64,000 bases of DNA from Chloroflexota bacterium (GTDB lineage Bacteria; Chloroflexota; Anaerolineae; UBA4142), in NCBI GenBank assembly GCA_016219275.1, contig JACRBM010000042.1:1-64000 (forward strand), given 5' to 3'. The notes beneath the pieces were generated by a model that saw only the letters and a program-made list of their open reading frames with translations, was not told the DNA's origin and did not search any database. Shown piece after piece: positions 17,936-35,230 of the stretch. A program made the translations under genes and the position numbers. Position 1 is the stretch's first letter, and each line of letters opens with the position of its first letter.

Positions 17936-17960
17936 GGTATTCTGGTCTGACCAGAATACC
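17936..17960 (+). promoter_or_regulatory. perfect FadR/GntR-type operator before the E1 fusion gene
   Basis: Half-sites GGTATTCTGGT and ACCAGAATACC are exact complements separated by CTG. The core TGGTCTGACCA matches the TGGTNNNACCA pattern of FadR-subfamily GntR regulators. It ends 16 bases before the ATG of a protein whose own N-terminus is a FadR-type DNA-binding domain, so autoregulation is likely. A smaller palindrome, AGTACC-GA-GGTACT, lies at 17882-17895. I see no convincing -10/-35 pair here. Confidence 0.85.
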
Positions 17961-17976
17961 ACAATACTGGAGTCGC

Positions 17977-19644
17977 ATGAAAATCCGCCCCGTCTCGTCC
18001 AACACACTCACGCATTCCGTCGTCGAACGTTTGCTCGGCTTGATCAGCGATGGCACCGTCAAACCCGGCGACAAGATGCCGTCGGAACGCACGCTGATGA
18101 AAAAGCTGGGTGTCTCGCGTTCGACGATTCGCGAAGCGTTGCAAGCGTTGTCGGCGAGCCATATCGTCGAGATTCGCCCCGGCGTCGGTACCTTCGTCCA
18201 CGCGCACGCCCGCGATTTGATTCCGCGCGCGCTCGCCAAAAATCGCGTGCCGAAAGACGCGCGCCCGACGAAAACAATTCTGCCGGCGGGCAATGGCAAC
18301 GGACGCGATCATCTTCTCGGCATCACGCCGATTCCTCCCGCGCCGGAAAAACCGATTCACATTCCGAATCTCAAAAAAGATCGGCTCGGCACATTCGATT
18401 TTATTTCGTGGTGGGAACGCGATAAAGTTCAAGCCGCGCGCGTCATGGTGATTGGCGCGGGCGCGCTCGGCAATGAAGTCTTGAAAAATCTCGCGCTGAT
18501 GGGCGTCGGCAATTTATTCGTCGTGGATTTCGACACGATTGAAGCCGCGAATCTTTCGCGCTCGGTTTTGTTTCGCGCGGAGGATAATGGCAAACCCAAA
18601 GCCGAAGTCGCGGCGCGGCGCGTGAAGGAACTCAATCCCGACGTTCACGTGCAATATTTTCAAGGCGATGTGAATACGGCGCTCGGGCTGGGCGTCTTTC
18701 GCCGGATGGACGCGATCATCGGTTGTCTCGATAACCGCGAAGCGCGGCTCTCGATCAATCGGTTCGCGTATCGGCTGAACAAACCCTGGGTGGACGGCGC
18801 GATCCAGGAACTGTTCGGACTCGTGCGCGTGTTCAAGCCGGGCGAAGGCGCGTGCTATGAATGCACGCTCACCGAGCAGGCGCGCCGCGAAATGTCGTTG
18901 CGTTATTCGTGTCCCCTCCTGGCGCGGCAGAATATCTTGCTCGGCAAGGTGCCGACGACGCCGACGATTTCCGCGATTGTCGCGGGCATGCAATCCCAGG
19001 AAGCGCTCAAGTTGATTCACAACATGCCGGTCGAGGCGGGGAAGGTTTTGCACGTCAACGGATTGACGAACGATTTCCACGCGACGGCGTACACGCCGGA
19101 CGAAAATTGCGAGAGCCATTGGGTCTACGGTGACATCCTCGAACTGGATCGCCAAGCGGCGACGACCACGGTCGCCGAGATGCTGCGTCTCGCGCGCGAA
19201 GCGTTGGGCGATGATGCGATTCTCGAACTCGACCAGGAATTTGTGACGCGGCTCGAATGTCATCAATGCGGGACTGTCGCCGAAATTTTCAAGCCGATCT
19301 CGCAAGTCAATTTCAACGACGGCTTGTGCCCGGGTTGCGGCGAGATGCGCGAAGTGCAAATGATTCACACGATTGCCGGCGATGAACCGTTCTTGAATCG
19401 TCCCTTGCTCGCCGTGGGCGTGCCGCCGCTGCATATCGTGCGCGCGCGTAATGAAAACGAATATCGTTTCTTTGAACTCACCGGCGATCTGGCGGATACG
19501 TTGCATTGGTCACACTTTGAGGGCGGCGCGCGATCGGCGCACGCCTCGCGTGTGCGTCTCCATCCGCGTCCGCAAATCAGACTCGGCGATGTGTTGCCGG
19601 ACGAACCGCCGCCGGTCACACGTCCGCGAGTCGTCGTCCACTGA
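17977..19644 (+). CDS. GntR winged-helix domain fused to a ubiquitin-activating (E1/ThiF-like) enzyme
   Basis: 555 residues from the ATG at 17977. Residues 8-75 are a FadR-subfamily GntR winged helix (MPSERTLMKKLGVSRSTIRE; IRPGVGTFV). After a Pro-rich linker (100-140), residues 148-350 are an E1 adenylation domain with VIGAGALGNEVLKNLALMGV, VVDFDTIEAANLSRSVLF and LDNREARLSINR. ACYECTL at 292-298 followed by RYSCPLL recalls the ECTL and catalytic-Cys region of UBA3/UBA2; Cys312 is the likely thioester cysteine. CxxC pairs at 428/431 and 451/454 form a zinc ribbon. The frame is unbroken with uniform codon use, so the fusion looks real. It should adenylate the Ubl proteins encoded downstream and also bind the operator in front of its own gene. 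Starts upstream (17815) are possible but would include the operator. Confidence 0.9.
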   Translation: MKIRPVSSNTLTHSVVERLLGLISDGTVKPGDKMPSERTLMKKLGVSRSTIREALQALSASHIVEIRPGVGTFVHAHARDLIPRALAKNRVPKDARPTKTILPAGNGNGRDHLLGITPIPPAPEKPIHIPNLKKDRLGTFDFISWWERDKVQAARVMVIGAGALGNEVLKNLALMGVGNLFVVDFDTIEAANLSRSVLFRAEDNGKPKAEVAARRVKELNPDVHVQYFQGDVNTALGLGVFRRMDAIIGCLDNREARLSINRFAYRLNKPWVDGAIQELFGLVRVFKPGEGACYECTLTEQARREMSLRYSCPLLARQNILLGKVPTTPTISAIVAGMQSQEALKLIHNMPVEAGKVLHVNGLTNDFHATAYTPDENCESHWVYGDILELDRQAATTTVAEMLRLAREALGDDAILELDQEFVTRLECHQCGTVAEIFKPISQVNFNDGLCPGCGEMREVQMIHTIAGDEPFLNRPLLAVGVPPLHIVRARNENEYRFFELTGDLADTLHWSHFEGGARSAHASRVRLHPRPQIRLGDVLPDEPPPVTRPRVVVH

Positions 19645-19688
19645 AACCTGGAACCGCGACGCCGAGAAAAAATCGCAAGCAATCACCA

Positions 19689-19736
19689 ACCCCACTCCTA
19701 CCCTCCCTTTACTAAGGGGAGGGAATCGGAGGGGTG
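19689..19736. repeat. inverted repeat between E1 and RING genes
   Basis: CCACTCCTACCCTCCCTT pairs imperfectly with AAGGGGAGGGAATCGGAGG, a common kind of intergenic palindrome in such genomes. It may slow transcription between the two genes but has no T-run. Confidence 0.6.
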
Positions 19737-19746
19737 AGATTTCGAA

Positions 19747-20676
19747 ATGCAATTCGATGCCCAAATTATTCCATGGCGCGGTTCATCACCGACGCGCCGC
19801 ACGCAGACAAATCGCATGAGCGCCGAACCACGATCCAAATGGGGTTTTCGCATTCGCTTTGCGCTCGGCGCGATCATCGCGCTCGGCTGGGGTTTCCTGC
19901 TCGGCGTTGCACTCTTGCGCGCGAATGCGACGCTCTCATTCTGGTTTGTCGGCGCAGTCATCCCACTCGCGTTCTTTGGCAGTGCGCTCGCGTGTTTCGC
20001 TTTCCAGCGCGCACTTCCCGAATGGCACACGCTCGTGCGATTACTGGCGGCTCTACTTTTCGCGGCGTTGGCGTTGCCGCTCGGATTAGGGTGGGCGTTG
20101 CGCGAGTGGGAACTCGACGCGAGTTTGTTGCTCGCGGTGACGGGAGAACAACTCTGGGAAATCGAATTTGGCATCGCGATCCTGGGTCTGATCGCCGGGA
20201 CGTGGACGGGCTGGGCGCATCCGCCGCAACGTTGGCTCGCGCGTGGCATCGCGGCTCTGCTCGAGCGTCCGACGCGTTTCTTCTCGGCGCTGTTCGAGTT
20301 TGTCACACGAGTCATCGCCAGTATCGGTCGCGCGATTCTGTGGCTGCCGCTCAAGATCATCGCGCTCGTGCGCGGTTTGATAAACGGGATCGCGTCATTT
20401 TTTAGCGCCATGCGAATTGGGATCGTTCGTTTGATTCCGCGACGAAATCGCGTGCGTTTGCCCAAACCATCGTTATTCCATCGCCACGCCGCGCCTCAAG
20501 CGAATGGCAGTGCACGCATCAAAGCCGTCGTCGAAGAGCGATGTCCGTACTGTCTCGATGTGGTCAAGCGCAATGATCCACGCGGGATTAAAGTGTGCGA
20601 GGTGTGTCACACGCCGCATCACGCGGATTGTTGGGCGATCACCGGCAAATGCCAGGTGCCGCATCTCAATACCTAG
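19747..20676 (+). CDS. membrane-anchored prokaryotic RING-finger protein (predicted E3-like)
   Basis: 309 residues. Four hydrophobic spans lie at about 37-58, 62-85, 94-115 and 139-158, then a basic amphipathic stretch (170-250). A C-terminal zinc domain follows: Cys266-x2-Cys269, Cys284-x2-Cys287, His291/292-x2-Cys295, Cys302 and His306, within ERCPYCLDVV and CEVCHTPHHADCWAI. This spacing and the HHADCW block match prokaryotic RING/treble-clef domains found with E2 enzymes. The finger faces the cytoplasm if both ends are inside. It could recruit the E2 to membrane substrates. The start is uncertain: ATG at 19816 (MSAEPRSKWG) would drop a polar 23-residue leader. Confidence 0.82.
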   Translation: MQFDAQIIPWRGSSPTRRTQTNRMSAEPRSKWGFRIRFALGAIIALGWGFLLGVALLRANATLSFWFVGAVIPLAFFGSALACFAFQRALPEWHTLVRLLAALLFAALALPLGLGWALREWELDASLLLAVTGEQLWEIEFGIAILGLIAGTWTGWAHPPQRWLARGIAALLERPTRFFSALFEFVTRVIASIGRAILWLPLKIIALVRGLINGIASFFSAMRIGIVRLIPRRNRVRLPKPSLFHRHAAPQANGSARIKAVVEERCPYCLDVVKRNDPRGIKVCEVCHTPHHADCWAITGKCQVPHLNT

Positions 20677-20784
20677 TTCACAATTTCCCAGAGTTTCCTT
20701 ATTTCCCTCATTTCCCTTGATTCCCCTTGCTTGGGCGGAGGGAACTCTGGGAAATCAAGGAACGCAACCTCGTTGGAGGAATTT

Positions 20785-21648
20785 ATGCCTGATCTCAGTG
20801 TGACTCTCGTTCTACCCGCCGGCGGCGCGCGCACGGCTGAAGTGCCGGACGATGTGCCCGTGCGCGAATTGATGCCGGAACTTATTTCCGTTCTCGAATT
20901 GCCGACGACCGGTCCCGATGGACGACCGATGGGTTATCGGATGGACAGCAAGGCGTTGGGACGCGAATTGCGCGAAGCGGAAACACTGCACGACGCGAAA
21001 ATTCCGCAACATGATCGCTTGATGATTACGGCGGATGTCACTGCCGGCGCGGGCAAGCCCTCCCTGGTTAGCGCGACGCCGCGCTTTCGCCGCCTCAAAG
21101 CCGATCACGACAAGATGCTCGAACTGAAAAAGCAGAGCCAGTTGATTGACTTTGAAGTGGTGGACGCGAAACCTGGGTTTCCGCCGGAAAAATATCTCGT
21201 GACGTTCAAATGCAAAAGCATCGTCGCGGTGGACGCGCAGGGCAATCCGCGTTTCGCCGACAAACACCAGGTCGCGATTTATCTGCACAACGAATATCCG
21301 CATCGCTGGCCCGGCTTGAAATGGCTCACACCGATTTGGCATCCCAACATCAAAGGCGCGAATGGCAGCGTCTGCATTGACGCTGCATGGTGGACTGCCG
21401 CGCGTTCGCTCGACCGGCTCGTGATCATGCTCGGCGAAATGGCGCAATGGAAAAATTTCCACGACGACCCGACCAAGCCGCCGTTTCCCTGGGACGCCGA
21501 AGCCGCCAAGTGGAGTATGAACTATCGTCGCACACACGCAGGTTGTTTTCCGGTGGACACGCGCGAATTGTTGCGCCCGGAACACGCCAAGCCGGCGAAG
21601 AAACCGGTTGCAAAGCTCAAAGCGCGTCCCAAGATCAAACTCAAGTAG
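20785..21648 (+). CDS. ubiquitin-like domain fused to an E2 (UBC) conjugating enzyme
   Basis: 287 residues from the ATG at 20785, 4 bases after TGGAGGA. Residues 1-87 are a YukD/ubiquitin-like beta-grasp domain ending TADVTAG. Residues 105-245 are a UBC fold with the E2 signature HPN (186-188) and SVCID, whose Cys197 is the expected thioester residue. The tail is Lys/Pro-rich. The Ubl part is nearly the same as the free Ubl made by the next gene (about 71 of 87 identical by hand). It should take Ubl from the E1 and pass it on with the RING protein. The fused Ubl could act as a built-in regulator or be released by the JAMM peptidases after TAG. The gap before it (20677-20784) holds a hairpin with arms TTTCCCAGAGTT and AACTCTGGGAAA. 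Confidence 0.9.
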   Translation: MPDLSVTLVLPAGGARTAEVPDDVPVRELMPELISVLELPTTGPDGRPMGYRMDSKALGRELREAETLHDAKIPQHDRLMITADVTAGAGKPSLVSATPRFRRLKADHDKMLELKKQSQLIDFEVVDAKPGFPPEKYLVTFKCKSIVAVDAQGNPRFADKHQVAIYLHNEYPHRWPGLKWLTPIWHPNIKGANGSVCIDAAWWTAARSLDRLVIMLGEMAQWKNFHDDPTKPPFPWDAEAAKWSMNYRRTHAGCFPVDTRELLRPEHAKPAKKPVAKLKARPKIKLK

Positions 21649-21771
21649 CGAACGGCGGATGGCGAATAGCAAATGGCAAATGGCAAATGGAAATTGCCAG
21701 AGGAACCAAGTATCGAGATTGAACGTGTCCACTCCAACTTCCAATCTCGAAATTCAAGTAGGAGGAACAGA

Positions 21772-22038
21772 ATGGCTGATGTACCCGTGACTCTCGTTTT
21801 GCCGGCAGGCGGATCGCGCACGGCAGAAGTGCCGAGCGATGTGCCCGTGCGTGAGTTGATGCCGGAACTCGCGTCGTCACTGCAATTGCCGACGACGGGA
21901 CCGGACGGCAGACCGATGGCATATCGGATGGATAGCAAGGCGCTCGGACGCGAACTGCGCGAAGACGAGACGCTTTCCGCCGCGGGCGTTCCGCAAAATG
22001 ATCGCCTGATGCTGACCGCCGATGTGACCGCGGGCTAA
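21772..22038 (+). CDS. free ubiquitin-like protein (YukD-like beta-grasp) ending in Gly
   Basis: 88 residues, ATG at 21772, with AGGAGG 7 bases upstream. The protein is a stand-alone copy of the Ubl domain fused to the E2: VTLVLPAGG, DVPVRELMPEL, LPTTGPDGRPM, and the end TADVTAG followed directly by the stop. A C-terminal Gly without extension means it needs no processing before adenylation by the E1. It ends in AG rather than the GG of eukaryotic ubiquitin. It is not ThiS or MoaD by sequence. Probably the modifier that is conjugated. Confidence 0.88.
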   Translation: MADVPVTLVLPAGGSRTAEVPSDVPVRELMPELASSLQLPTTGPDGRPMAYRMDSKALGRELREDETLSAAGVPQNDRLMLTADVTAG

Positions 22039-22150
22039 AACGTTGTCTCGTCGAGATGAGCTGGTAACTCGTCTTGGCGACCACTATGCCGGCGCGGCTG
22101 GCTGGGTCTTACCCCGGATCGAGCCAGCCGCCCGGCTCCCTTGAATCGAA

Positions 22151-23269
22151 ATGACTGAGATTGAAACGTATCGCGCGCTGTCCATCGCGCCGACCCAGGT
22201 AGAGAACGCCGCGCCGGTCTTGTTCGAATTGATCGGCGATTCGACCGAGATTGGTTCGGCGGACGACAACGCGATTGTGCTCGCGAATCCCAACGTCGCG
22301 CTGCATCATCTCGAAGTGCGCCGCGTAGATGGGCGCGATCACTTGCTCATCAACTTGAGCGAACGGCGGCGCGCGCGCGACCTGACCTGGTTCAAATATC
22401 GCCGGGGCGATGCGTATTGGTGTCCGCGTCACGGCAGTATCGCGCGGCTCGATGCGCGGGGTTGGTGCGCGAAATGCCGCACGCGGCGCGGCTCGCTGTG
22501 GTTGATGCGTCCGCTCACACCGGGGGATGCGTTCGACGTGGGACGCGCGTTTCGCGCGACGTATCTCGTGCCAGAACGCGCGAATCAAACCAAACTGCCG
22601 CCGCGCCAAGTTCCCCCGCGCGATGCCTTTGACCGACCGCGTAAAATCGCGATTCCGACGACTGCACCGCAAATCGCGACCCAGGACTTGCCGACCGATG
22701 ATTCGAATCTGTGGCGTTGGCAACCGGCGGAGGCGCCGTTTCCGATCTTTTTGCATCAGCGCGTCAACGTGGATGTCACGCGCCACGCGCGCCAGAATCG
22801 TGATCGCGAAGTGGGCGGCGTGTTGATTGGCGAGGTCTGCCGCGACCAGGATGGGCATCTGTTCGTCGTCGCGTCGCACGCGATCAAAGCCGAATTCGCG
22901 CAAGAATCGCGTGGACAGTTGACCTTTACACACAACACCTGGCTCAAGATTCATCACACGTTGGAAGCGCAATTTCCCGGCAAACTGATTGTCGGTTGGT
23001 ACCATACGCATCCAGGGTGGAGCATTTTTCTATCGGACTGGGATTTATTCATTCATCAAAATTTTTTCAAACAACCCTGGCAAGTCGCGCTCGTCATAGA
23101 CCCATCGCTAGATCGCGCCGGTTTCTTTGTGTGGAAAGATAATCAGGTTTGCAACCCGCAAGCCCCGGTTGAGCCGTTTCGACTCGCCGAAGTAGAATGG
23201 TCGGATATCGCGCGACCACGCGTGCGGATCAAGTTGACCGATCCGCATGGCGCATCCAAGGTCAAATGA
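22151..23269 (+). CDS. FHA-like / zinc-knuckle / JAMM (MPN+) isopeptidase
   Basis: 372 residues. An FHA-like N-terminus (about 25-80: TEIGSADDNAIVLANPNVALHHLEVRR) would bind phosphothreonine partners. A zinc knuckle follows (Cys91, His94, Cys106, Cys109). The C-terminal JAMM domain (about 200-330) has catalytic Glu220 in REVGGVLIGE, His285 and His287 in WYHTHPG, Ser295 and Asp298: a complete zinc metallo-deubiquitinase signature. It would remove or process the Ubl. It lies between the free Ubl and a second JAMM gene, in the same direction with short gaps. No strong ribosome site is visible before the ATG at 22151. Confidence 0.88.
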   Translation: MTEIETYRALSIAPTQVENAAPVLFELIGDSTEIGSADDNAIVLANPNVALHHLEVRRVDGRDHLLINLSERRRARDLTWFKYRRGDAYWCPRHGSIARLDARGWCAKCRTRRGSLWLMRPLTPGDAFDVGRAFRATYLVPERANQTKLPPRQVPPRDAFDRPRKIAIPTTAPQIATQDLPTDDSNLWRWQPAEAPFPIFLHQRVNVDVTRHARQNRDREVGGVLIGEVCRDQDGHLFVVASHAIKAEFAQESRGQLTFTHNTWLKIHHTLEAQFPGKLIVGWYHTHPGWSIFLSDWDLFIHQNFFKQPWQVALVIDPSLDRAGFFVWKDNQVCNPQAPVEPFRLAEVEWSDIARPRVRIKLTDPHGASKVK

Positions 23270-23287
23270 AAGTGAAGGAGTTTTGCC

Positions 23288-23944
23288 ATGACAACCCGAA
23301 TCAAGTTACTCGACTGGGAACCGGCGACCATCTGCGAAGCGCCGATGCCGCTCGACGACGCGTTGCGTTGGAATTCACGATACGAAGCCGCGGTGAACCC
23401 GCGTATCGCAATCTTTTTCGCCCAGTCCGCGTACATCAAGTGCATCGAACACACGCGCAGCGATATGGATAGCGAGGTCGGCGGCGCGCTCATCGGCAAG
23501 GTGTGCATAGACCCGCAAACGGAACAGCAATACATTCTGATTCAGGACGTTATCCCCGCGCTCTACACTCAAGCCGGCGAAACACACGTGACCTTTACGC
23601 ACGAAACGTTGATCCACCTGAACACCGAACTGGAAGACCGCTTTCCCGGCAAACGCATGGTCGGTTGGTACCACACGCATCCGCGTCTCGGCGTGTTCAT
23701 GTCCGGTTACGATACCTGGTTGCATCGGCATTTCTTCCACGATTCGACCCAGGTCGCGCTCGTCGTAGACCCCGAGCGCAACCAAGGCGGCTTTTTCTGT
23801 TGGAGCGCGCAAGGCGACTTGGATCCGGTCAATTACACCGGGTTTTACGAGTGGAGTGATCGGAACGATGACAGCATTATCGGATGGACGAACGTGTCGC
23901 CGGTCGTGAATGGCGCGGAGTTGGATCTGGTGGCGGTGGCGTGA
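23288..23944 (+). CDS. JAMM/Mov34 metallopeptidase, second copy
   Basis: 218 residues, with GAAGGAG upstream and 18 bases after the previous gene. The JAMM domain is complete: Glu63 in SEVGGALIGK, His129 and His131 in WYHTHPR, Ser139 and Asp142. It aligns closely with the JAMM half of its neighbour, including the RFPGK lead-in, so the two arose by duplication. It lacks the FHA and zinc parts. Two active peptidases suggest different tasks, for example Ubl-E2 cleavage and substrate deconjugation, but this is inference. Confidence 0.9.
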   Translation: MTTRIKLLDWEPATICEAPMPLDDALRWNSRYEAAVNPRIAIFFAQSAYIKCIEHTRSDMDSEVGGALIGKVCIDPQTEQQYILIQDVIPALYTQAGETHVTFTHETLIHLNTELEDRFPGKRMVGWYHTHPRLGVFMSGYDTWLHRHFFHDSTQVALVVDPERNQGGFFCWSAQGDLDPVNYTGFYEWSDRNDDSIIGWTNVSPVVNGAELDLVAVA

Positions 23945-23991
23945 AGCGAATCGCGAATTGCAAATTGCGACTTGCCTGAAAGGAGAACAAG

Positions 23992-24852
23992 ATGAGTTTG
24001 CGAATGCGCGTTTATTATTACGCGGTGCTGGGTGCGCTGGGCGCGCTCATCGGTTGGCGCATCAGTGACACGCTTGGATTCATGCGCGGCGTGAATGTAT
24101 ACGTGAACGATCTCGTGCTGGGCGGCATCATCGGCTTGTGCCTGGGTCTCTTGATCGGCGCGAGCGAGGGATTGTTGGCGCGCTCGTGGTATCGCGCGGC
24201 GCGTGCGGGCGCGCTCGCCGGTGGCATTGGATTGCTCGCCGGCGCGATTGGTTTGCCGGTTGGCGAATTCGTCTTCCAAATCACCGGCGGCGAATTGATC
24301 GGACGCGCGCTGGGGTGGGCGTTGTTTGGCGCGCTCATCGGTTTGTCCGAAGGCGTCACGAGTGGAACACAAATGTGGAAAGGCGCGGTCGGCGGCGTGC
24401 TGGGTGGACTCCTCGGCGGCATTGTGCTGTTCGTTTTGCAATCGCTCATCGGCGCGACGGTCATCGGCAAGATGCTGGGACTCGTCTTGCTCGGCGCGGC
24501 AGTCGGCGTGTTCATCGCGTTGATCGTCGTTCTGCTCTCGCGCGCGTGGCTCGAAGTGGTGAGCGGCAAGTTAAAAGGCACCGAGTTCATTCTCGACAAG
24601 TATCTGCACGCGCACGGACCGGCGGCGATCATCGGGAGCAACGATTTCAAAGCGGACATCGCGTTGCCCGATCCTGGGATCGCGCCGCAGCACGCGCGCT
24701 TGAAAGGCGCGGGCGCGTACTTTGTCATCGAAGATATGAGCATTGGCAAAGGTACGTTCGTGGATGGAAAAAAAGTTGAGGCCGCGCGTCTGGCGAACAA
24801 CGCGTCCATCCGGGTCGGCAACACGATGATGATTTATCACGAACGACATTAG
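23992..24852 (+). CDS. polytopic membrane protein with C-terminal FHA domain
   Basis: 286 residues. Residues 1-190 are Gly/Ala-rich hydrophobic spans with glycine-zipper-like patterns (LGGIIGLCLGLLIGA, GGVLGGLLGGIVLF), about six segments. Residues 195-285 form a cytoplasmic FHA domain: IIGSNDFKADIALPDPGI, APQHARL, GKGTFVDGKKV, ASIRVGN. It would be a membrane receptor for threonine-phosphorylated proteins. A ribosome site AAAGGAG precedes the ATG. No kinase is encoded nearby. Same operon as the JAMM genes. Confidence 0.85.
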   Translation: MSLRMRVYYYAVLGALGALIGWRISDTLGFMRGVNVYVNDLVLGGIIGLCLGLLIGASEGLLARSWYRAARAGALAGGIGLLAGAIGLPVGEFVFQITGGELIGRALGWALFGALIGLSEGVTSGTQMWKGAVGGVLGGLLGGIVLFVLQSLIGATVIGKMLGLVLLGAAVGVFIALIVVLLSRAWLEVVSGKLKGTEFILDKYLHAHGPAAIIGSNDFKADIALPDPGIAPQHARLKGAGAYFVIEDMSIGKGTFVDGKKVEAARLANNASIRVGNTMMIYHERH

Positions 24853-24874
24853 CCACACCCTTAAGGGTGTGGCT
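24851..24874 (+). terminator. perfect hairpin overlapping the FHA gene stop
   Basis: AGCCACACCC and GGGTGTGGCT form a 10-bp stem with a TTAA loop, starting inside the stop codon of the FHA gene and ending 9 bases before the next start. There is no T-run, so it may act as an RNA stabiliser or translational boundary and not as a full terminator. Confidence 0.6.
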
Positions 24875-24883
24875 AAAAGGACG

Positions 24884-26086
24884 ATGAAAATGAAAACCTG
24901 GTTTCGATCATTCATCCTCGCGTGCACGATGGCGCTCGTCGCGACGATAAACACATACGCGCAAACGCCGGTCGTCATCAATGTGACCCAAGTGGACACC
25001 TCGCGCTTTCCGCAAGTAGATGTGTACATTTCGGTGACGGACGCGAATGGCAATCCGGTACGAAATGTGCCGGCAAGCGCGCTGCAAGTTCAAGAAAACG
25101 GCAAGACGGTCGCGGCAACGGCGACGACGCGCTCCGGCGACCTGGGTCCAGTGAGTACGATCCTCATCGTAGATCGCAGCGGTAGCATGGCGCGTAGCGG
25201 CAAGATGGACGGTGCGAAGCAAGCTGCGACGACGTTCGTGAATCAAATGCGTTCGGGTGATCGCGCCGCGTTGGTGCAGTTCGACACGGAAATCGAAACT
25301 CTGCAATCATTGACCGACAACAAGAACGCGCTGCTTGCCGCAATTCCAAAACTCGTCCCGCGCGGTAACACGGCGATGTACGACGCGCTCGGTCAAGCGA
25401 GCAGGTTTTTCGAATCGGCGCAGGGACGCAAAGCGGTCATCGTCGTGACGGATGGCATGGACAACGCGAGCAACCTCAGCCGCGATGCGATGTTGAATTC
25501 CGCGAATTCGAGCGGTTATTCGATCTACACGATTGGTCTGGGCGCGCAAGCGGTGGGTACGAATAGTCAGGAAGGCATTGACGAGCCGGTGCTCCAAGAG
25601 ATCGCGCGCGCGTCGTTGGGCGAATACTATTACGCGCCGGACGCGAGTCAACTCGGCACGCTGTATCAGCAAATCGCGTCGCGCATTCAAAACGAGTACA
25701 AGTTGACGTACACCTCGACTGCCGCGCTGCGCGATGGATTGAAACGCGCGATTGTGGTGACCGCGCCGGGCTTGGGCACGACGCGCGCGGATTACAATCC
25801 GGGCGGCGTGATTCCCGAAGTTGAGCCGCAAGGATGGTCGTGGGTGTGGTTTATGCTCGCGTTGATTCTGCTCGTCGCGCTGTTCTTTGCGCCGCAAGGA
25901 GCGCGTTGGGTGTTCGCGCGCGCGACGCCCGCGCCCGCACCAAAGTCGCGAGTGCGATTGACGGAGGGCGCAACGACCCCCGCGCCAAGCTCACCGCGTC
26001 CCTCGCGCATCAAGATCAAGAAGCCGGCAACCGCGGATGCGACGCGGCAAAAGTTGCCGTGGGACGAGGAGCCATCCAAGCATTGA
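24884..26086 (+). CDS. secreted, membrane-anchored von Willebrand factor A (VWA) domain protein
   Basis: About 400 residues. The ATG at 24884 or 24890 opens a signal peptide (FILACTMALVATINTYAQ). A short N-terminal beta domain is followed by a VWA domain (about 85-275) with a complete metal-ion site: DRSGSMARS, Thr in GNTAMYD, and VVTDGMDNAS. Near 320-340 is a membrane span (WFMLALILLVALFF), then a basic Pro-rich cytoplasmic tail. VWA domains bind proteins through Mg2+. It could be the outside partner of the membrane RING/FHA proteins, but only neighbourhood supports that. Confidence 0.85.
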   Translation: MKMKTWFRSFILACTMALVATINTYAQTPVVINVTQVDTSRFPQVDVYISVTDANGNPVRNVPASALQVQENGKTVAATATTRSGDLGPVSTILIVDRSGSMARSGKMDGAKQAATTFVNQMRSGDRAALVQFDTEIETLQSLTDNKNALLAAIPKLVPRGNTAMYDALGQASRFFESAQGRKAVIVVTDGMDNASNLSRDAMLNSANSSGYSIYTIGLGAQAVGTNSQEGIDEPVLQEIARASLGEYYYAPDASQLGTLYQQIASRIQNEYKLTYTSTAALRDGLKRAIVVTAPGLGTTRADYNPGGVIPEVEPQGWSWVWFMLALILLVALFFAPQGARWVFARATPAPAPKSRVRLTEGATTPAPSSPRPSRIKIKKPATADATRQKLPWDEEPSKH

Positions 26087-26281: not shown

Positions 26282-27328
26282 ATGTTTGACAATATGCCGA
26301 ATGTCGGGAAGAAAGGGAACCCAGGTTCGTCGAATCGGCGCGCGCCAATCGTGGTCGGTCTGCTTGCGCTCGTCGCGTTGCTGATTTGCCTCGCGCTGGC
26401 AGGTTTGGGCGCGGGGACATTTTGGTTGCAGCGACCTGGGTCATCCTTGCCGGAAAAACTCGGTTTGACATCTCCGTCAACGAGCGTGACGTCGGACGCG
26501 ACAACCGCGCCCGCGGCGTCATCGTCCGCGCGCGCGACCGGTAAAATCGCGTACAGCGTTTTTACCGGCGATTCGCCGGAGGGCAAAACGATTTGGGTGA
26601 TGAACGCGGATGGCAGTAATCCAAAACAAATTCTGCCCAAAGCGTCCTCGCCGACGTTTTCGCCGGACGGCAAGCGCATCGCGTTTTATCAGTGGAACAA
26701 TGGCATCTTTGTCGCGAACGCGGATGGATCGAACGCGCAGAAAATTCTCGGCGAGACGAACGCAAAATATCTCGCGTGGTCGCATGACGGCAAATGGATC
26801 GCGTTCGCATCCCAGCCGATTCAAAAAGAAGGCATGAATGTGAACATTGACGCAGTGTTCGCGGACGGCAGTCTGCGGCGCACAATTGTCGGCGGCGGTA
26901 CGTTGCCTGCCTGGTCGCCGGACGATACGCAGATCACATTTTCGTCGTGTCGCGGAAGTAACTGCGGAATTTTGATCGCGAGTTCGTTGGGCAACGATGG
27001 CGGACGTTTGATCGTCGGCGAGTTGGGCGCGAATCCGATGTGGTCGCCGGATGGACAACGCATCGTCTATCAAGCCGAAGCGGATGGCGTCAAGCAATTG
27101 TTCGTCGTCAACGCGAATGGATCGGGCAAGCGGCAACTGACGACCGGCAAAGAACAACACGTCGGCGCAACGTGGTCGCTCGACGGAAATTTTATTTTCT
27201 ATCGTGCGACCGACAACAATCACTGGGGCATTTATCGCATGAACGCCGATGGCAGCAATCCAACGCGTCTCATCCAGGATGTCGCACCAGTGGATTGGGC
27301 ATACGAGCGGTTAGCGGTCGGCAAGTAA
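26282..27328 (+). CDS. membrane-anchored TolB-like beta-propeller protein (PD40 repeats)
   Basis: 348 residues. One N-terminal membrane anchor (residues 21-45, IVVGLLALVALLICLALAG) is followed by a Ser/Thr linker and an extracytoplasmic propeller. At least five PD40/WD40-like blades can be read (FSPDGKRIAFY, WSHDGKWIAFA, WSPDDTQITFS, WSPDGQRIVYQ, WSLDGNFIFYR), alternating with MNADGSNP-type loops. It is a scaffold and no enzyme is implied. It is the last gene of the plus-strand block and is followed by a real terminator. Membership in the ubiquitin-like operon is plausible but not certain (195-base gap). Confidence 0.82.
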   Translation: MFDNMPNVGKKGNPGSSNRRAPIVVGLLALVALLICLALAGLGAGTFWLQRPGSSLPEKLGLTSPSTSVTSDATTAPAASSSARATGKIAYSVFTGDSPEGKTIWVMNADGSNPKQILPKASSPTFSPDGKRIAFYQWNNGIFVANADGSNAQKILGETNAKYLAWSHDGKWIAFASQPIQKEGMNVNIDAVFADGSLRRTIVGGGTLPAWSPDDTQITFSSCRGSNCGILIASSLGNDGGRLIVGELGANPMWSPDGQRIVYQAEADGVKQLFVVNANGSGKRQLTTGKEQHVGATWSLDGNFIFYRATDNNHWGIYRMNADGSNPTRLIQDVAPVDWAYERLAVGK

Positions 27329-28261: not shown

Positions 28262-28534
28262 GCGCAAATTTCCAATTTGCGTTGGCAAGTTGGAAACTTG
28301 CCCTACGCGACTACGTGGCGCAAATTTCCAATTTGCGTGCGGCAAGTTGGAAACTTGCCCTACGCGGCTACGTGGCGCAAATTTCCAATTTGCGTACGGC
28401 AGGTTGGAAACTTGCCCTACGCGACTACGTGGCGCAAATTTCCAATTTGCGTTGGCAAGTTGGAAACTTGCCCTACGCGGCTACGTGGCGCAAATTTCCA
28501 ATTTGCGTACGGCAAGTTGGAAACTTGCCCTACG
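28262..28534. repeat. tandem array of five 56/57-bp units, each with two palindromes (family D)
   Basis: Units begin at 28262, 28318, 28375, 28432 and 28488 (the last is truncated at 47 bp). Each holds GCAAATTTCCAATTTGC and GGCAAGTTGGAAACTTGCC, then CCCTACGCG(A/G)CTACGTG. Units 1 and 4 share GCGTTGGC; units 2, 3 and 5 have one more base (GTGCGGC or GTACGGC). The stop codon of recD2 lies in unit 5. A degenerate relative is at 38095-38188. Confidence 0.92.
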
Positions 28535-30809: not shown

Positions 30810-31436
30810 CTATAATCTTTTCTCGACAATCGCCAGGATTTCGCGCTTGCGTCGTTCGGCTTCCGCGACGAGTTGCGCCGCGCGCGAACGGCGATCCTGG
30901 GTGAACATCGCGTCGTCAATCGAACCAAGATTGATCGCGACGTTCAACGCCGCGCCGCGTACGCCCGCTTCCGCCATCAACGCGCCCACGCCGCCGTCGC
31001 TCGCGGCATTCTTGTTGCCTTTTTCCGCGACGACGCGCGCCAGTTCGAGCACTTGCGCGCATTGTTCAGCGACGTGCAGTGGCACATCGGTGGCATGTTT
31101 CAGCGCGTCTCGAATCGCGTTCGCGCGCGCGTTTTTTTCTTCGTCGGTGTGCTTGGGCAGTTTGTACGCCTCCATCACGCGCGCGTACGCGTCGGTATCG
31201 CTTTGCATCAAGTCGCGCAGTTCGCGCTGCAGTTCTTCGGCGCGTATGAGGATTGTTTGCATTTCGTCATTCACCGCCGCATAGTTTTTTCTGCCGATAG
31301 TCAGACGGCACACCATCGCGACGAGCGACGCGCCGAGCGCGCCGCTGAGCGCGGCGACGGTGCCGCCACCCGGCGCGGGTTCCGCCGAGGCAACCTGGTC
31401 TAAAAATGTTTGCACGGATTCAGATGCGAAGGACAT
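30810..31436 (-). CDS. fchA: methenyltetrahydrofolate cyclohydrolase / formimino-THF cyclodeaminase
   Basis: 208 residues, all-helical FTCD C-terminal domain. It starts FLDQVASAEPAPGGGTVAALSGALGA, the family hallmark, and ends in a Lys/Arg-rich helix. It removes ammonia from 5-formimino-THF, giving methenyl-THF, the last step of the formimino branch of histidine breakdown. AGGAGG stands 8 bases before the ATG. It follows ftcD across one family A hairpin, so both halves of the animal FTCD enzyme are separate genes here. Confidence 0.9.
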   Translation of the reverse strand: MSFASESVQTFLDQVASAEPAPGGGTVAALSGALGASLVAMVCRLTIGRKNYAAVNDEMQTILIRAEELQRELRDLMQSDTDAYARVMEAYKLPKHTDEEKNARANAIRDALKHATDVPLHVAEQCAQVLELARVVAEKGNKNAASDGGVGALMAEAGVRGAALNVAINLGSIDDAMFTQDRRSRAAQLVAEAERRKREILAIVEKRL

Positions 31437-31492
31437 GGAAAACCTCCTGGATCAATTTAACATCTACGCAAATGCAATCAGCAAGCGGAGAT

Positions 31493-31525
31493 AGAATCCA
31501 GGTTTCTTCGAGAAACCTGGATTCT
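31493..31525. repeat. palindromic hairpin repeat family A, copy 5
   Basis: Perfect 15-bp stem, loop TCG, between ftcD and fchA. Confidence 0.9.
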
Positions 31526-31543
31526 GGCGAAGGGATTGTCAAT

Positions 31544-32440
31544 TTACTCGCCGTGGATTTTCATCTCGACGACCTGGTTCGCGTTCAGCGCCGGCAACTT
31601 GAGCGCGTGCGCCGCGAGCTGGGTCAATGCTTCGAGCGGCACGAGTCCGATGAGTTCGCTTTCCAACACCTGGACGTCCCGCCTGTCGGCTTCGGCTTTC
31701 ACCGCATTGAACGCGGTCAACATACCGGTCACGTTAAAGTCGGTCAGGTTCATCGAAACCTGCGCGAGGTTGCGTTCGCGCAACATGAATCCCTTTGCCT
31801 TGACCGATTTCAATCCGCCGCCGCGTTCGCGGATTGCACGTGCAATGTCTTTGGCAATTTGCAAATCGCTCGTTGCCAGGTTGACGTTGAACGCGATGAG
31901 GTATGGTCGCGCGCCGATCACCGTCGCACCGGCTTTGCCGAGGCGACTGGGTCCGAAATCCGGCGCGCGCGCTGGGTCGGTCGCGATTTCGCGCCTGAGC
32001 GTTTCGTACTGTCCGCGCCGAATGTACGCTAGGTCGCGTCGTTCGGGGCGCGTTGCCGCGCTCTCGTAGAGATACACGGGAATATCCAATTCGCGCGCGA
32101 CGCGTGCGCCCAAGCGTTGCGCCATCGTGACGCATTCCTGCATCGTCACGCCGCTGACCGGCACGAACGGCACGACATCGGTTGCGCCGATGCGCGGATG
32201 TTCGCCGTGATGCGTGTCGAGATCAATCAAGCGCGCGGCGGTCCCGATCCCGCGAAACGCGGCGTCTTCTAGCGCGTCCGGCGCGCCGGCGAGTGTGATG
32301 ACGCAGCGGTTGTGATCCGCGTCCATCTCGCGGTCGAGCAGTTTGACGCCGGGCAACAACATCGCGCTGACGATTTCATCAACGATTTGCACGCGCCGAC
32401 CTTCGGAAAAATTCGGCACGCATTCGACAATCTTTTCCAT
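31544..32440 (-). CDS. ftcD: glutamate formimidoyltransferase
   Basis: 298 residues. Moves the formimino group from N-formimino-L-glutamate to tetrahydrofolate. VECVPNFSEGR opens the protein and THHGEHPRIGATDVVPFVP holds the catalytic histidine near residue 82. Next YLYESAATRPERRDLAYIRRGQYE follows as in all family members. It is encoded between hutU and fchA in the same direction. AAGGAAA precedes the ATG. Confidence 0.93.
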   Translation of the reverse strand: MEKIVECVPNFSEGRRVQIVDEIVSAMLLPGVKLLDREMDADHNRCVITLAGAPDALEDAAFRGIGTAARLIDLDTHHGEHPRIGATDVVPFVPVSGVTMQECVTMAQRLGARVARELDIPVYLYESAATRPERRDLAYIRRGQYETLRREIATDPARAPDFGPSRLGKAGATVIGARPYLIAFNVNLATSDLQIAKDIARAIRERGGGLKSVKAKGFMLRERNLAQVSMNLTDFNVTGMLTAFNAVKAEADRRDVQVLESELIGLVPLEALTQLAAHALKLPALNANQVVEMKIHGE

Positions 32441-32468
32441 GATTTTCCTTAACTCGGATGTTAATTAT

Positions 32469-32538
32469 GGGACGCGGACGAACGCGGACAAGCGCAGATA
32501 AAAAAATAATCCGTGTTCATCCGCGTTCATCCGCGCCC
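32469..32538. repeat. inverted repeat family B, copy 1
   Basis: GGACGCGGACGAACGCGGAC pairs with ATCCGCGTTCATCCGCG and neighbours, between hutU and ftcD. Other members: about 42025-42077, 48054-48186 and 53978-54226. Confidence 0.8.
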
Positions 32539-32556
32539 TATTTGTTTTTGGGCGAT

Positions 32557-34200
32557 TCACCGCATCATCGGTATCTTGATGCCGGTTCGCTTGGCGAATT
32601 GAATCGCTTCGGGATACCCGGCATCTGCGTGACGAATCACGCCCATGCCTGGGTCGCTCGTCAGCACGCGCTCCAAACGTCGCGCCGCTTCGGGTGTGCC
32701 GTCGGCGACGATGACCTGTCCTGCGTGAATCGAATAGCCGATGCCCACGCCGCCGCCGTGATGAATCGAAACCCAGGTCGCGCCGTTCACCGCGTTGATG
32801 AGCGCGTTGAGCAGGGGCCAATCCGCGATCGCGTCCGAACCATCGCGCATCGCTTCCGTTTCGCGGCGCGGCGACGCGACGGAACCGGCATCGAGATGAT
32901 CGCGTCCGATGACAATTGGCGCGGACACGATGCCTTTGGCGACGAGATCGTTGAACTTTAAACCGGCGCGCGCGCGTTCGCCGTAGCCCAGCCAGCAGAT
33001 GCGCGCCGGTAAACCCTGGAACGCGATGCGTTTTTGCGCCATGCGAATCCAGCGCGCTAGGTGTTCGTTTTCCGGAAAGAGTTCGAGGATCGCTTCGTCG
33101 GTCCGATAAATATCTTGCGGATCGCCGGAGAGCGCGACCCAGCGAAACGGTCCCTTGCCTTCGCAGAAAAGCGGACGAATGTATGCGGGCACGAACCCAG
33201 GATAATCGAACGCGTTCTTGACGCCGGCGTCATACGCGCGCTGACGCAAATTGTTGCCGTAATCGAAAACGATGGATCCGCGCTTTTGAAAATCGAGCAT
33301 CGCCTCGACGTGCTTTGCCATGGATGCCATCGAGCGCTGCTGGTAATCGAGGTAATTAGTAATTCGTAATTGGTTCGCTTCTTCGAGCGGCATTTCGGGT
33401 ACGTACATCAACGGATCATGCGCGGGCGTTTGATCGGTGACGACATCCGGGACAACGCCGCGCGCGACGAGTTCGGACAGCACATCCGCCGCGTTGCCAA
33501 TCACACCGATAGAGCGCGCTTGTTTTTGCTTGAGCGCATCTTCGACGCGCGTCATCGCGTCCTCGAGATTGTCCGTCAGTTCGTCGAGATAGCGCGTTTC
33601 GAGACGACGTTGTGCGCGCTGAGGGTCAACCTCGACGACGAGTGCGACGCCTTGGTTCAACGTCACCGCAAGCGGCTGCGCGCCGCCCATCCCGCCGAGT
33701 CCCGCCGTCAAAACGAATTTGCCCTGGAGCGAACCCCAGCCCTGTTGTTGTGCGAGACTGCCAAGCGTTTCATACGTTCCTTGCACGATGCCTTGACTGC
33801 CGATATAAATCCAACTGCCCGCCGTCATCTGTCCGTACATGATCAGCCCAGCGCGTTCCCATTCGTCGAAATTTTCCTGGGTCGCCCACGCCGGCACAAT
33901 GTTCGAGTTCGCGATCAAGACGCGCGGCGCGTCCGGGTGTGATTTGAGAACGCCGACCGGCTTGCCCGACTGGACGAGCAACGTTTCATCCGTTTCGAGT
34001 TCGCGCAGTGATTTCACAATCGCGTCGAAACATTCCCAGTTACGCGCGGCGCGCCCGCGTCCGCCGTAGACGATGAGTTCGTCCGGCTTTTCCGCGACGT
34101 CGGGATCGAGGTTGTTCATCAACATGCGCAGCGGCGCTTCGGTGAGCCAGGACTTGCACGTGATTTGTGCGCCGCGCGGCGCGCGGATTATTCTCGACAT
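32557..34200 (-). CDS. hutU: urocanate hydratase
   Basis: 547 residues. Converts urocanate to imidazolone propionate using a tightly bound NAD+. [15 protein letters not shown] (NAD site) and [16 protein letters not shown] (catalytic Cys) are both present, and [15 protein letters not shown] near the end is diagnostic. Length is normal. GGGAGGAT is upstream of the ATG. The operon hutU-ftcD-fchA covers the middle and last steps; histidase (hutH) and imidazolonepropionase (hutI) are not in the window. Confidence 0.95.
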
Positions 34201-34352
34201 CTTATCATCCTCCCAGATACGCCGCTTTGACGCGCGGATTTTGCGTCAATGCTTGCGTGGTATCGCGCACGTTGTGATATTGCAACGTGAGGTGCTTGGA
34301 TAATACACGCGTCTTCAGTAGTGTCAAGATACGCGAAGCCCGGCAAGCCGAA

Positions 34353-34399
34353 TTGACACCCGCCCTATTTCGTGGTACATTCTAAACATCTTAAGATGT
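34353..34399 (+). promoter_or_regulatory. promoter and palindromic operator of the HutC-type regulator
   Basis: TTGACA (34353-34358) and TACATT (34376-34381) are 17 bases apart. The perfect palindrome ACATCTTAAGATGT (34386-34399) covers the expected start point, so the regulator may repress itself and the genes that follow. No matching copy was noticed before hutU. Confidence 0.7.
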
Positions 34400-34441
34400 A
34401 TTAAGATTTATTTTCTCCTCCTCCGCAAAGGTCGGTTGCCT

Positions 34442-35230
34442 ATGAAGATCACACGGGATAGCGCATTCCCGCTCTACCAGCAACTGGCGAGTGCGTTACG
34501 CCATCAAATTGAAACCGGGAAACTCAAGCCCGGCGCGATGTTGCCCCCGGAAAGCATTCTCACGCGCCAGTTTCAAGTTAGCCGCATCACCGCGCGCCAA
34601 GCTCTTGACTTGCTCGTGGCAGAAGGATTGATTATCCGCAAGCAAGGTAAGGGCACGTTTGTTTGTCCTCCCAAGATTCAGCAAGACCTAAGTTCACTGC
34701 GAGGATTCGCCGAACTCATGGCGACGCGGGGCGCGGAACAAAAGATGCAGGTATTGGCATTCGAGATGGTGTTGCCGGATCAACGTGTTGCCGAGTCACT
34801 GCGCGTGACGTCAGGCGAACAGGTGTTGCGGATCAAACGGCGGCATTTGTTGAAAGGCAACCCGATTGCGTATGCCATCATCTACTTGCCGCGTGAGTTG
34901 GGGCAGCGTTTCACGATCAACCAGGTTTCCCAGACGCCGATCTATTCCTTGTTGACCGAAAAGGCGCGCGTCGAAATCAAACGCGCGACCCAGGTCGTGC
35001 GCGCGATCGGCGCGGATCAAGACGCGGCGACGGTCCTCAAATTACCGCGCGGCGCGCCGGTGATGATGGTCGAACGCATCACCTACGCGCGCGACGAAAA
35101 GCCCGTCGAGTATATTCTGTTCTTTCATCGCGGCGATTCGTACGAACTGACCGCCGAACTGAATCGCGAACCGACGAAAAATATCTTGCGCCAGCAAGAT
35201 AATCTTGGTCGTTTCGCGCCGGACAGTTAG
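34442..35230 (+). CDS. GntR-family regulator, HutC subfamily (UTRA effector domain)
   Basis: 262 residues from the ATG at 34442 (a TTG two codons earlier is less likely). N-terminal winged helix: AFPLYQQLASALRHQIE, MLPPESILTRQFQVSRITAR and GKGTFVCPPK. The UTRA ligand-binding domain follows (LRIKRRHLLKGNPIAYAIIYLP; PVEYILFFHRGDSYEL). It lies divergent to the histidine genes and just before the creatininase/transport block, with its own promoter and operator. It may control either side; ligand unknown. Confidence 0.9.
   Translation: MKITRDSAFPLYQQLASALRHQIETGKLKPGAMLPPESILTRQFQVSRITARQALDLLVAEGLIIRKQGKGTFVCPPKIQQDLSSLRGFAELMATRGAEQKMQVLAFEMVLPDQRVAESLRVTSGEQVLRIKRRHLLKGNPIAYAIIYLPRELGQRFTINQVSQTPIYSLLTEKARVEIKRATQVVRAIGADQDAATVLKLPRGAPVMMVERITYARDEKPVEYILFFHRGDSYELTAELNREPTKNILRQQDNLGRFAPDS

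Follow-up and report, generated by a model that had tools for sequence, protein, structure and literature searches.

Cascades of ubiquitin-like (Ubl) conjugation with a RING component are usually regarded as a eukaryotic trait that has its roots in archaea, and those bacterial versions that have been characterised mostly act in defence. In the current study, a stretch of 64,000 nucleotides from a Chloroflexota bacterium of the class Anaerolineae (contig JACRBM010000042.1; here called the window) was analyzed, whose contig belongs to a 6.16-Mb genome that is 98% complete. An operon was found in it that consists of eight plus-strand genes (17977-26086) preceded by an operator (17936-17960) and codes for E1, E2, RING, Ubl, JAMM, FHA and VWA proteins. 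Judged from its sequence, it is fairly probable that this is a self-regulated, membrane-attached Ubl conjugation operon.

Burroughs, Iyer and Aravind reportedly described, in 2011, bacterial operons for E1, E2, Ubl, JAB and RING proteins that include the family Prok-RING_1 (PF14446). The present operon shares with them a RING protein of the same membrane-helix family and the partners Ubl, E1, E2 and JAB. It also has a GntR-E1 with an operator, a predicted domain like the ubiquitin-fold domain (UFD) of E1s, a VWA protein, shared tails and the Ubl-E2 junction, which are not known to us from such operons. Literature searches on GntR with ThiF/E1-like proteins and on Anaerolineae with ubiquitin returned nothing on this operon, and an earlier description is possible. 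No earlier report was found in which an E1 and a DNA-binding domain form one protein that is accompanied by its own operator, a combination that seems to be new, its priority being unproven.

The operon of Caldiarchaeum subterraneum (E1, E2, small RING, Ub, Rpn11) is likewise a complete set including a RING. It differs in being archaeal, in its small RING, in a Gly-Gly ubiquitin that is not of the YukD type, and in having no VWA, FHA or transmembrane (TM) parts; we know of no DNA-binding E1 in Caldiarchaeum. Its Rpn11 (CsRpn11) is the best solved match of the window JAMM and processes precursors (PMC6043591), as is proposed here for the window JAMM. The bacterial Bil and Bub systems also combine E1, E2, Ubl and a protease, and an operon-level repressor is common in Bub (PMC13373217). 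There the regulator is a separate protein, and RING, VWA and membrane FHA proteins are not known to us from these systems. Unlike Bil and Bub, the operon described here has no defence context.

Operon organization and the winged-helix E1

To collect homologous loci, 400 genomes from the phylum and 396 from the class were scanned, and one named-genome scan was added. The order E1 - membrane RING - Ubl::E2 - Ubl - (FHA-JAMM) - JAMM - membrane FHA - VWA was found again in about 65 Anaerolineae loci with the E1, E2, RING and JAMM residues kept, and because this order recurs across dozens of Anaerolineae genomes, the operon is not a product of chance. The FHA-JAMM gene is additional to this set in the window's own clade and in L051 (seen in L045-L049 and L051). 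A first-pass annotation of the window had described a locus of seven genes at 17977-24852. All seven are present, in the order and on the strand given there and in agreement with the Pfam profiles, but the locus is longer, as the operator and the VWA gene belong to it too; the latter had been overlooked, and is as constant across loci as the other operon genes.

The first pass had likewise overlooked the operator, the UFD-like domain of the E1, the tail motif common to several of the proteins and the probable processing of the fused Ubl. Also overlooked was the N-terminal part of the E1, which is a GntR winged helix (Pfam E=5e-21) followed by the ThiF domain (E=1.9e-58). The winged helix was present in every window-type E1 homologue except truncated records and the E1 of locus L258, and its helix residues R48, T50 and R52 together with G71 of the wing were kept in 74-80 of 81 E1s. 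In the adenylation domain G160, G162, D186, N192, R195, K208, D252 and C312 were invariant (81/81), as were the zinc ligands C293 and C296, while C378 and H381 were kept in 80/81, with a gap in the other. The best structural alignments of this domain were with MoeB and UBA3 (Z 28).

A FadR-like palindrome, TGGTCNGACCA, occurred in its exact form in 56 of the 78 E1 upstream regions, about 30 bp ahead of the start, against 0.01 expected from shuffles, and a looser form, GGTNNNACC, in 72 of them (1.2 expected). The copy in the window is interrupted at its centre only. A sigma70-like promoter lay ahead of the palindrome in 60/72 loci, with a median distance of 10 nt from the end of the -10 box to the operator. 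From its sequence position just downstream of the -10 box, the operator is where a repressor would be predicted to block transcription.

The palindrome was absent at 15 of 15 loci with a helix-less E1, compared with its presence at 72 of the 78 with the helix (Fisher p=7e-13, a value in which independence is overstated, the loci being related). At locus L259, the E1 has the helix, yet no palindrome was detected in the stretch searched. Since the palindrome accompanies the winged-helix E1 and is missing at helix-less loci, the E1 probably represses its own operon, DNA binding being predicted from these sequence patterns. The operator with a T/A centre has one copy in the window's genome, and in the fully scanned genome G402 two exact-core sites were detected, one at the operon and the other inside a gene. 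As exact-core sites are few per genome, the operon itself is the likely target; a wide operator regulon was rejected on the same grounds, the second G402 site being intragenic.

The winged helix and the TGGTCNGACCA-type operator are features of FadR/GntR regulators. Those proteins carry an effector-binding domain, but in the present protein it is replaced by the E1: by Pfam, the FCD/acyl-CoA effector domain of FadR regulators was not found, and the ThiF E1 follows the winged helix instead. By its sequence, the E1 may work like a FadR regulator, yet is not one.

A diverged operon version that occurs in another family (f8) has the order E1 - Ubl - E2 - JAMM - JAMM - RING - RING. At the f8 loci (L040:3396-13777, L041, L244-L255 and L257), the E1 has no winged helix, one JAMM carries a TM segment and two Prok-RING_1 proteins are encoded; genes for a dynamin-like GTPase, an ADP-ribosylglycohydrolase-like protein and a CAP protein often lie upstream. 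At L258 (genome G644) the E1 lacks the winged helix and there is no operator, but RING, E2, JAMM, membrane FHA and VWA genes are present. This locus is an intermediate between the window-type and f8-type operons.

Conjugation enzymes and probable Ubl processing

Pfam detected an E1, an E2, a RING, a Ubl and two JAMMs, in agreement with the first-pass proposal of a complete set for Ubl conjugation and deconjugation. The catalytic residues on which that proposal relied (E1 Cys312, E2 HPN and Cys197, Ubl Gly88, and the E, HxH, S and D residues of the JAMM) are present and conserved, and the comparison of homologues revealed no loss of the active cysteines or JAMM residues, so that the proposal stands.

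A model of the E1 C-terminal domain by itself was predicted from 63 sequences (pLDDT 90). In a fold comparison of the model, the top 14 rows were all E1 UFDs (UBA2, UBA3, plant E1) at Z 6.3-8.2, later rows reaching at most 5.0, and the UBA3 UFD was superposed at 2.4-2.5 A over 74-76 residues. The two best Foldseek matches were also UFD complexes, at E values (0.06-0.08) that alone are not significant. The modelled domain thus likely resembles the E2-recruiting UFD of eukaryotic E1s. In eukaryotes, the UFD uses an acidic patch to bind a basic motif that lies in the first E2 helix (PMC12355090). In the present alignments E417, D419 and E421 of the UFD-like domain were invariant, as were R100 and R103 of the corresponding E2 helix, and by analogy these residues are consistent with the eukaryotic UFD-E2 contact.

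UBA2 and UBA3, which belong to the E1s of SUMO and NEDD8, resemble the window E1 in their adenylation domain (Z 26-28), in a C-terminal domain that is predicted to be UFD-like here, and in a zinc site formed by the crossover loop and the loop leading to the UFD (in the window E1 C293, C296, C378 and H381). Unlike them, the window E1 has no inserted catalytic-cysteine domain, is a single chain of the homodimer type, and carries a winged helix and, within its UFD-like domain, a zinc ribbon whose four cysteines were kept in 78/81 E1s, the remainder being gaps.

The E2 gene codes for a fusion, in which YukD (7e-10) and UQ_con (6e-10) were detected by Pfam within one protein. H186, P187, N188 and C197 were at least 95% conserved in homologues, and PDB profile matches were to UBE2K and other E2s. 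The separately encoded Ubl ends in exactly [VI]TAG in 70 of 71 intact homologues, and its net charge is mostly between -5 and -10. The closest solved relatives of the JAMM at 23288-23944 in a PDB search were Rpn11 (the archaeal one of Caldiarchaeum first, then that of the 26S proteasome) and CSN5; its residues E63, H129, H131, S139 and D142 were conserved to 95% or more across 70 homologues.

The end of the fused Ubl is almost invariant. At the Ubl-E2 junction T86 was found in 74/74, A87 in 73/74 and G88 in 73/74 homologues, and the next residue was A, G or S in 72/74. Because of this exact T-A-G end, for which a permanent scaffold would have no use, the JAMM probably releases the fused Ubl from the E2. 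Archaeal CsRpn11 is known to cut linear ubiquitin precursors and fusions (PMC6043591). Short extensions past the Ubl glycine were found in two f8-type Ubls (VTAG-RS and VTAG-QGRRA; L247, L248) and in one of window type (ITAG-A); the two f8-type proteins look like precursors, and all three support processing.

It is also conceivable, at somewhat long odds, that the fusion is permanent, the fused Ubl serving as a non-covalent scaffold or an allosteric part of the E2 that is never released. Related operons (L039/L052 and the f8 type) have an E2 with no fused Ubl; the fusion is thus not obligatory and could have a role of its own. The near-invariance of the junction is what a scaffold leaves unaccounted for. 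Concerted evolution of the fused and free Ubl was not seen (identity 0.71 within a genome, 0.73-0.79 between orthologues).

Two further observations concern these protein families. A third, separate JAMM is encoded by a 144-aa open frame at G000:C39:55094-55429, with a Prok-JAB score (82 bits) better than those of the operon JAMMs. YukD-like Ubl stretches also occur inside longer open frames in the very large genomes G321, G328 and G352 (L016-L018), which belong to another family of the phylum.

Membrane proteins and shared tails

The RING protein, with an N-terminal membrane part, scored just above the PF14446 cut-off (29.3 against 29.1 bits), and each of its eight zinc ligands was kept in 95% or more of 76 homologues. 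It is likely the E3 of the system. Predicted TM segments in both the RING and the FHA protein support the membrane parts noted in the first pass. The MIDAS residues of the VWA protein were at least 95% conserved in homologues.

Canonical FHA readers of phosphothreonine carry Gly-Arg and SRxH residues. The membrane FHA protein has G215-S216 in place of GR and A231-P232-Q233-H234 in place of SRxH, and S216, P232, Q233 and H234 were conserved in 66 homologues; the FHA of the larger JAMM protein (22151-23269) is marginal (E=0.014). The FHA domains of the operon look, by sequence, like the structural YscD type. The FHA domain called in the first pass for the membrane protein is detected by Pfam, but the signalling role attached to it is weakened, because the residues that bind phosphothreonine are missing.

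A short motif of basic and hydrophobic residues, of the form [KR]-x-[RK]-[IV]-[KR]-[LI]-[KR], was found in the disordered ends of the E1, Ubl-E2, VWA (behind the TM segment, on the cytosolic side) and FHA-JAMM proteins. It was present in 51/81 E1 tails (3.9 in shuffled tails), 67/75 Ubl-E2 (3.0), 46/67 VWA (1.6) and 6/7 FHA-JAMM (0.0), and in the RING, Ubl, JAMM and membrane FHA homologues only 0-1 copies were found, nothing above chance. Being common to several operon proteins, the motif ties parts of the system together. Genome G402 (2.24 Mb, with 1973 genes according to a simple gene-calling script) was also scanned with a position matrix that omitted its own clade; Ubl-E2 and VWA ranked first and second of 1973 (23.6 and 21.4), and the next score was 13.0. 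A genome-wide substrate tag was rejected for G402, as only these two proteins stood out, and a tail lysine as conjugation site was rejected because the E1 tail of the window (RPRVVVH) has no lysine.

A plain basic tail that binds membrane or RNA, with no docking, would fit a motif that is short, basic and located at disordered ends. We consider it an unlikely explanation, though one to be kept in mind, since hydrophobic and basic residues alternate in strict register, and in G402 the motif is conspicuous in operon proteins only, other lysine-rich tails scoring far lower.

Table 1. Genes of the operon and the operator, with positions in the window.
Feature	Position	Strand	Description	Basis
Operator	17936..17960	.	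25-bp palindrome GGTATTCTGGTCTGACCAGAATACC, core TGGTCTGACCA at 17943-17953; 3' end 16 nt ahead of E1 start codon	
E1	17977..19644	+	GntR winged helix-turn-helix, residues 13-74; ThiF adenylation domain 146-379, Cys312; predicted Zn-binding UFD-like domain ~386-505; tail disordered, motif RVRLH, RVVVH	Pfam, alignment, residue counts in 81 E1s, models, fold comparison
Membrane RING	19747..20676	+	Prok-RING_1; about 4 predicted TM segments; C-terminal zinc finger, 8 ligands C4-H-C-C-H	Pfam PF14446 8e-7
Ubl-E2	20785..21648	+	YukD-type Ubl and canonical E2; H186-P187-N188, Cys197; T-A-G|A junction, residues 86-89; tail motif KIKLK	Pfam, alignment, PDB profile matches
Free Ubl	21772..22038	+	YukD family, 88 aa, acidic, C-terminus V-T-A-G	Pfam YukD 5e-11
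Second JAMM (FHA-JAMM)	22151..23269	+	N-terminal degenerate FHA; CxxH/CxxC finger; RVRIK near end; extra gene of the window's clade	Pfam JAB 2e-12
JAMM	23288..23944	+	JAMM metallopeptidase	Pfam JAB 8e-9, PDB search, residue conservation
Membrane FHA	23992..24852	+	Multi-TM, glycine-rich membrane protein; C-terminal YscD-like FHA	Pfam FHA 1e-10; conserved in 66+ homologues
VWA	24869..26086	+	Exported; signal peptide; MIDAS intact (D102xSxS, T168, D195); one C-terminal TM segment; cytosolic tail motif RIKIK; last operon gene	Pfam

A TolB-like gene (26282-27328) was rejected as part of the operon, as it occurs in few near relatives only. Elsewhere in the window, a tandem repeat (28262-28534; 57-bp unit, 4.8 copies, 94% matches) lies between SRAP and RecD2 genes, and a histidine degradation cluster (30810-35230; FTCD, urocanase) is accompanied by a HutC-like GntR-UTRA regulator.

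Proposed function, alternatives and significance

In the proposed scheme, the E1 would adenylate Gly88 of the Ubl, move the Ubl to Cys312 and pass it to Cys197 of the E2, its UFD-like domain (E417, D419, E421) gripping the E2 by the basic helix that comes first in it (R100, R103). The JAMM would cut Ubl-E2 after T-A-G to give free Ubl and E2, with more Ubl added by the separate gene, the membrane RING would bring E2~Ubl together with substrates on the inner side of the membrane, and the JAMM peptidases would strip the tag from substrates. The tails of E1, E2 and VWA would dock on a common partner, and an outside ligand on the VWA would gather the machinery at the membrane. Two E1 chains would pair by way of their MoeB-like adenylation domains, and the two winged helices of this homodimer would bind the operator and repress the operon. 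A Ubl-adenylate, a Ubl thioester or an E2 engaging the E1 would plausibly lift the repression, and conjugation demand would raise supply. The whole of this regulatory proposal (the E1 as repressor of its own operon, the conjugation state fed back to DNA, and an envelope VWA sensor wired to the cascade by shared tails) has, in our estimate, an even chance of being correct.

Several points weigh against the scheme. Another FadR-like regulator could in principle read the operator. At its C-terminus the Ubl has one Gly, preceded by Ala, and not Gly-Gly. The resemblance to a UFD comes from a predicted model with middling Z scores, and a search for a match of the E1 C-terminal domain to known UFDs at the sequence level found none. 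The E1 tail of G402 scored 9.0, inseparable from background, and among E1s the motif is limited to the 51 of 81 given above. The partner of the tails is a guess, with the acidic Ubl as the first candidate and the membrane FHA protein as another. Finally, a role of the FHA domains as phospho-readers was rejected, both being devoid of the phosphothreonine-binding Gly-Arg and Ser.

An anti-phage function of the Bil, Bub or CBASS kind, with the built-in winged helix in the role that CapW, CapH/P or CapK/S have in Bub operons, is rather improbable. It retains some weight because the operon is patchily spread (a Ubl-E2 match in 47 of the 396 sampled class genomes, and in 6 of the 14 members listed for the window's family) and because Bub, a family of bacterial ubiquitination-like operons, often has a dedicated repressor (PMC13373217). 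There was, however, no nuclease, CD-NTase or other defence neighbour; PADLOC called no defence gene next to the operon and reported only generic E1, JAB and RecD2 matches and one weak regulator match. At 17 loci of one lineage, the operon lies between rplL and lexA, both neighbours being present, which is a housekeeping position outside defence islands. The exported VWA, the multi-TM parts and an architecture highly conserved across the class also speak against defence. The first-pass preference for a signalling or envelope role is thus supported in the lack of called defence neighbours, and the envelope role itself is something we infer.

A sulfur-carrier pathway (MoeB/ThiF with MoaD/ThiS) that involves no protein conjugation is very improbable: the E1 adenylation domain is nearest to MoeB and UBA3 and the terminal Gly is single, but sulfur relay has no place for an E2 with HPN and Cys, for a RING, for two JAMMs or for a predicted UFD-like domain, there is no rhodanese or cofactor gene, and the Ubl is of the YukD type. 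Least probable is an accessory locus of type VII secretion, a system known to include YukD and FHA domains, since WXG100 proteins numbered 0 in six genomes with the operon or a divergent relative (Bacillus subtilis control positive) and YukD was confined to the operon in the genomes checked.

A self-regulated, membrane-attached Ubl conjugation operon thus fits the observations best. It is widespread in Anaerolineae, tied to the membrane and, in one lineage, in a housekeeping position, and it is present in a cultured organism, Pelolinea submarina (L086). An E1 that doubles as transcription factor would be a simple reporter of its own state, and if this is true, it would be, as far as we know, the first case in which a Ubl cascade is coupled directly to transcription by the E1 that belongs to it. 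The compact set of E1 (UFD-like), E2, RING, Ubl and Rpn11-like JAMM is also suited to the study of the origins of such cascades.

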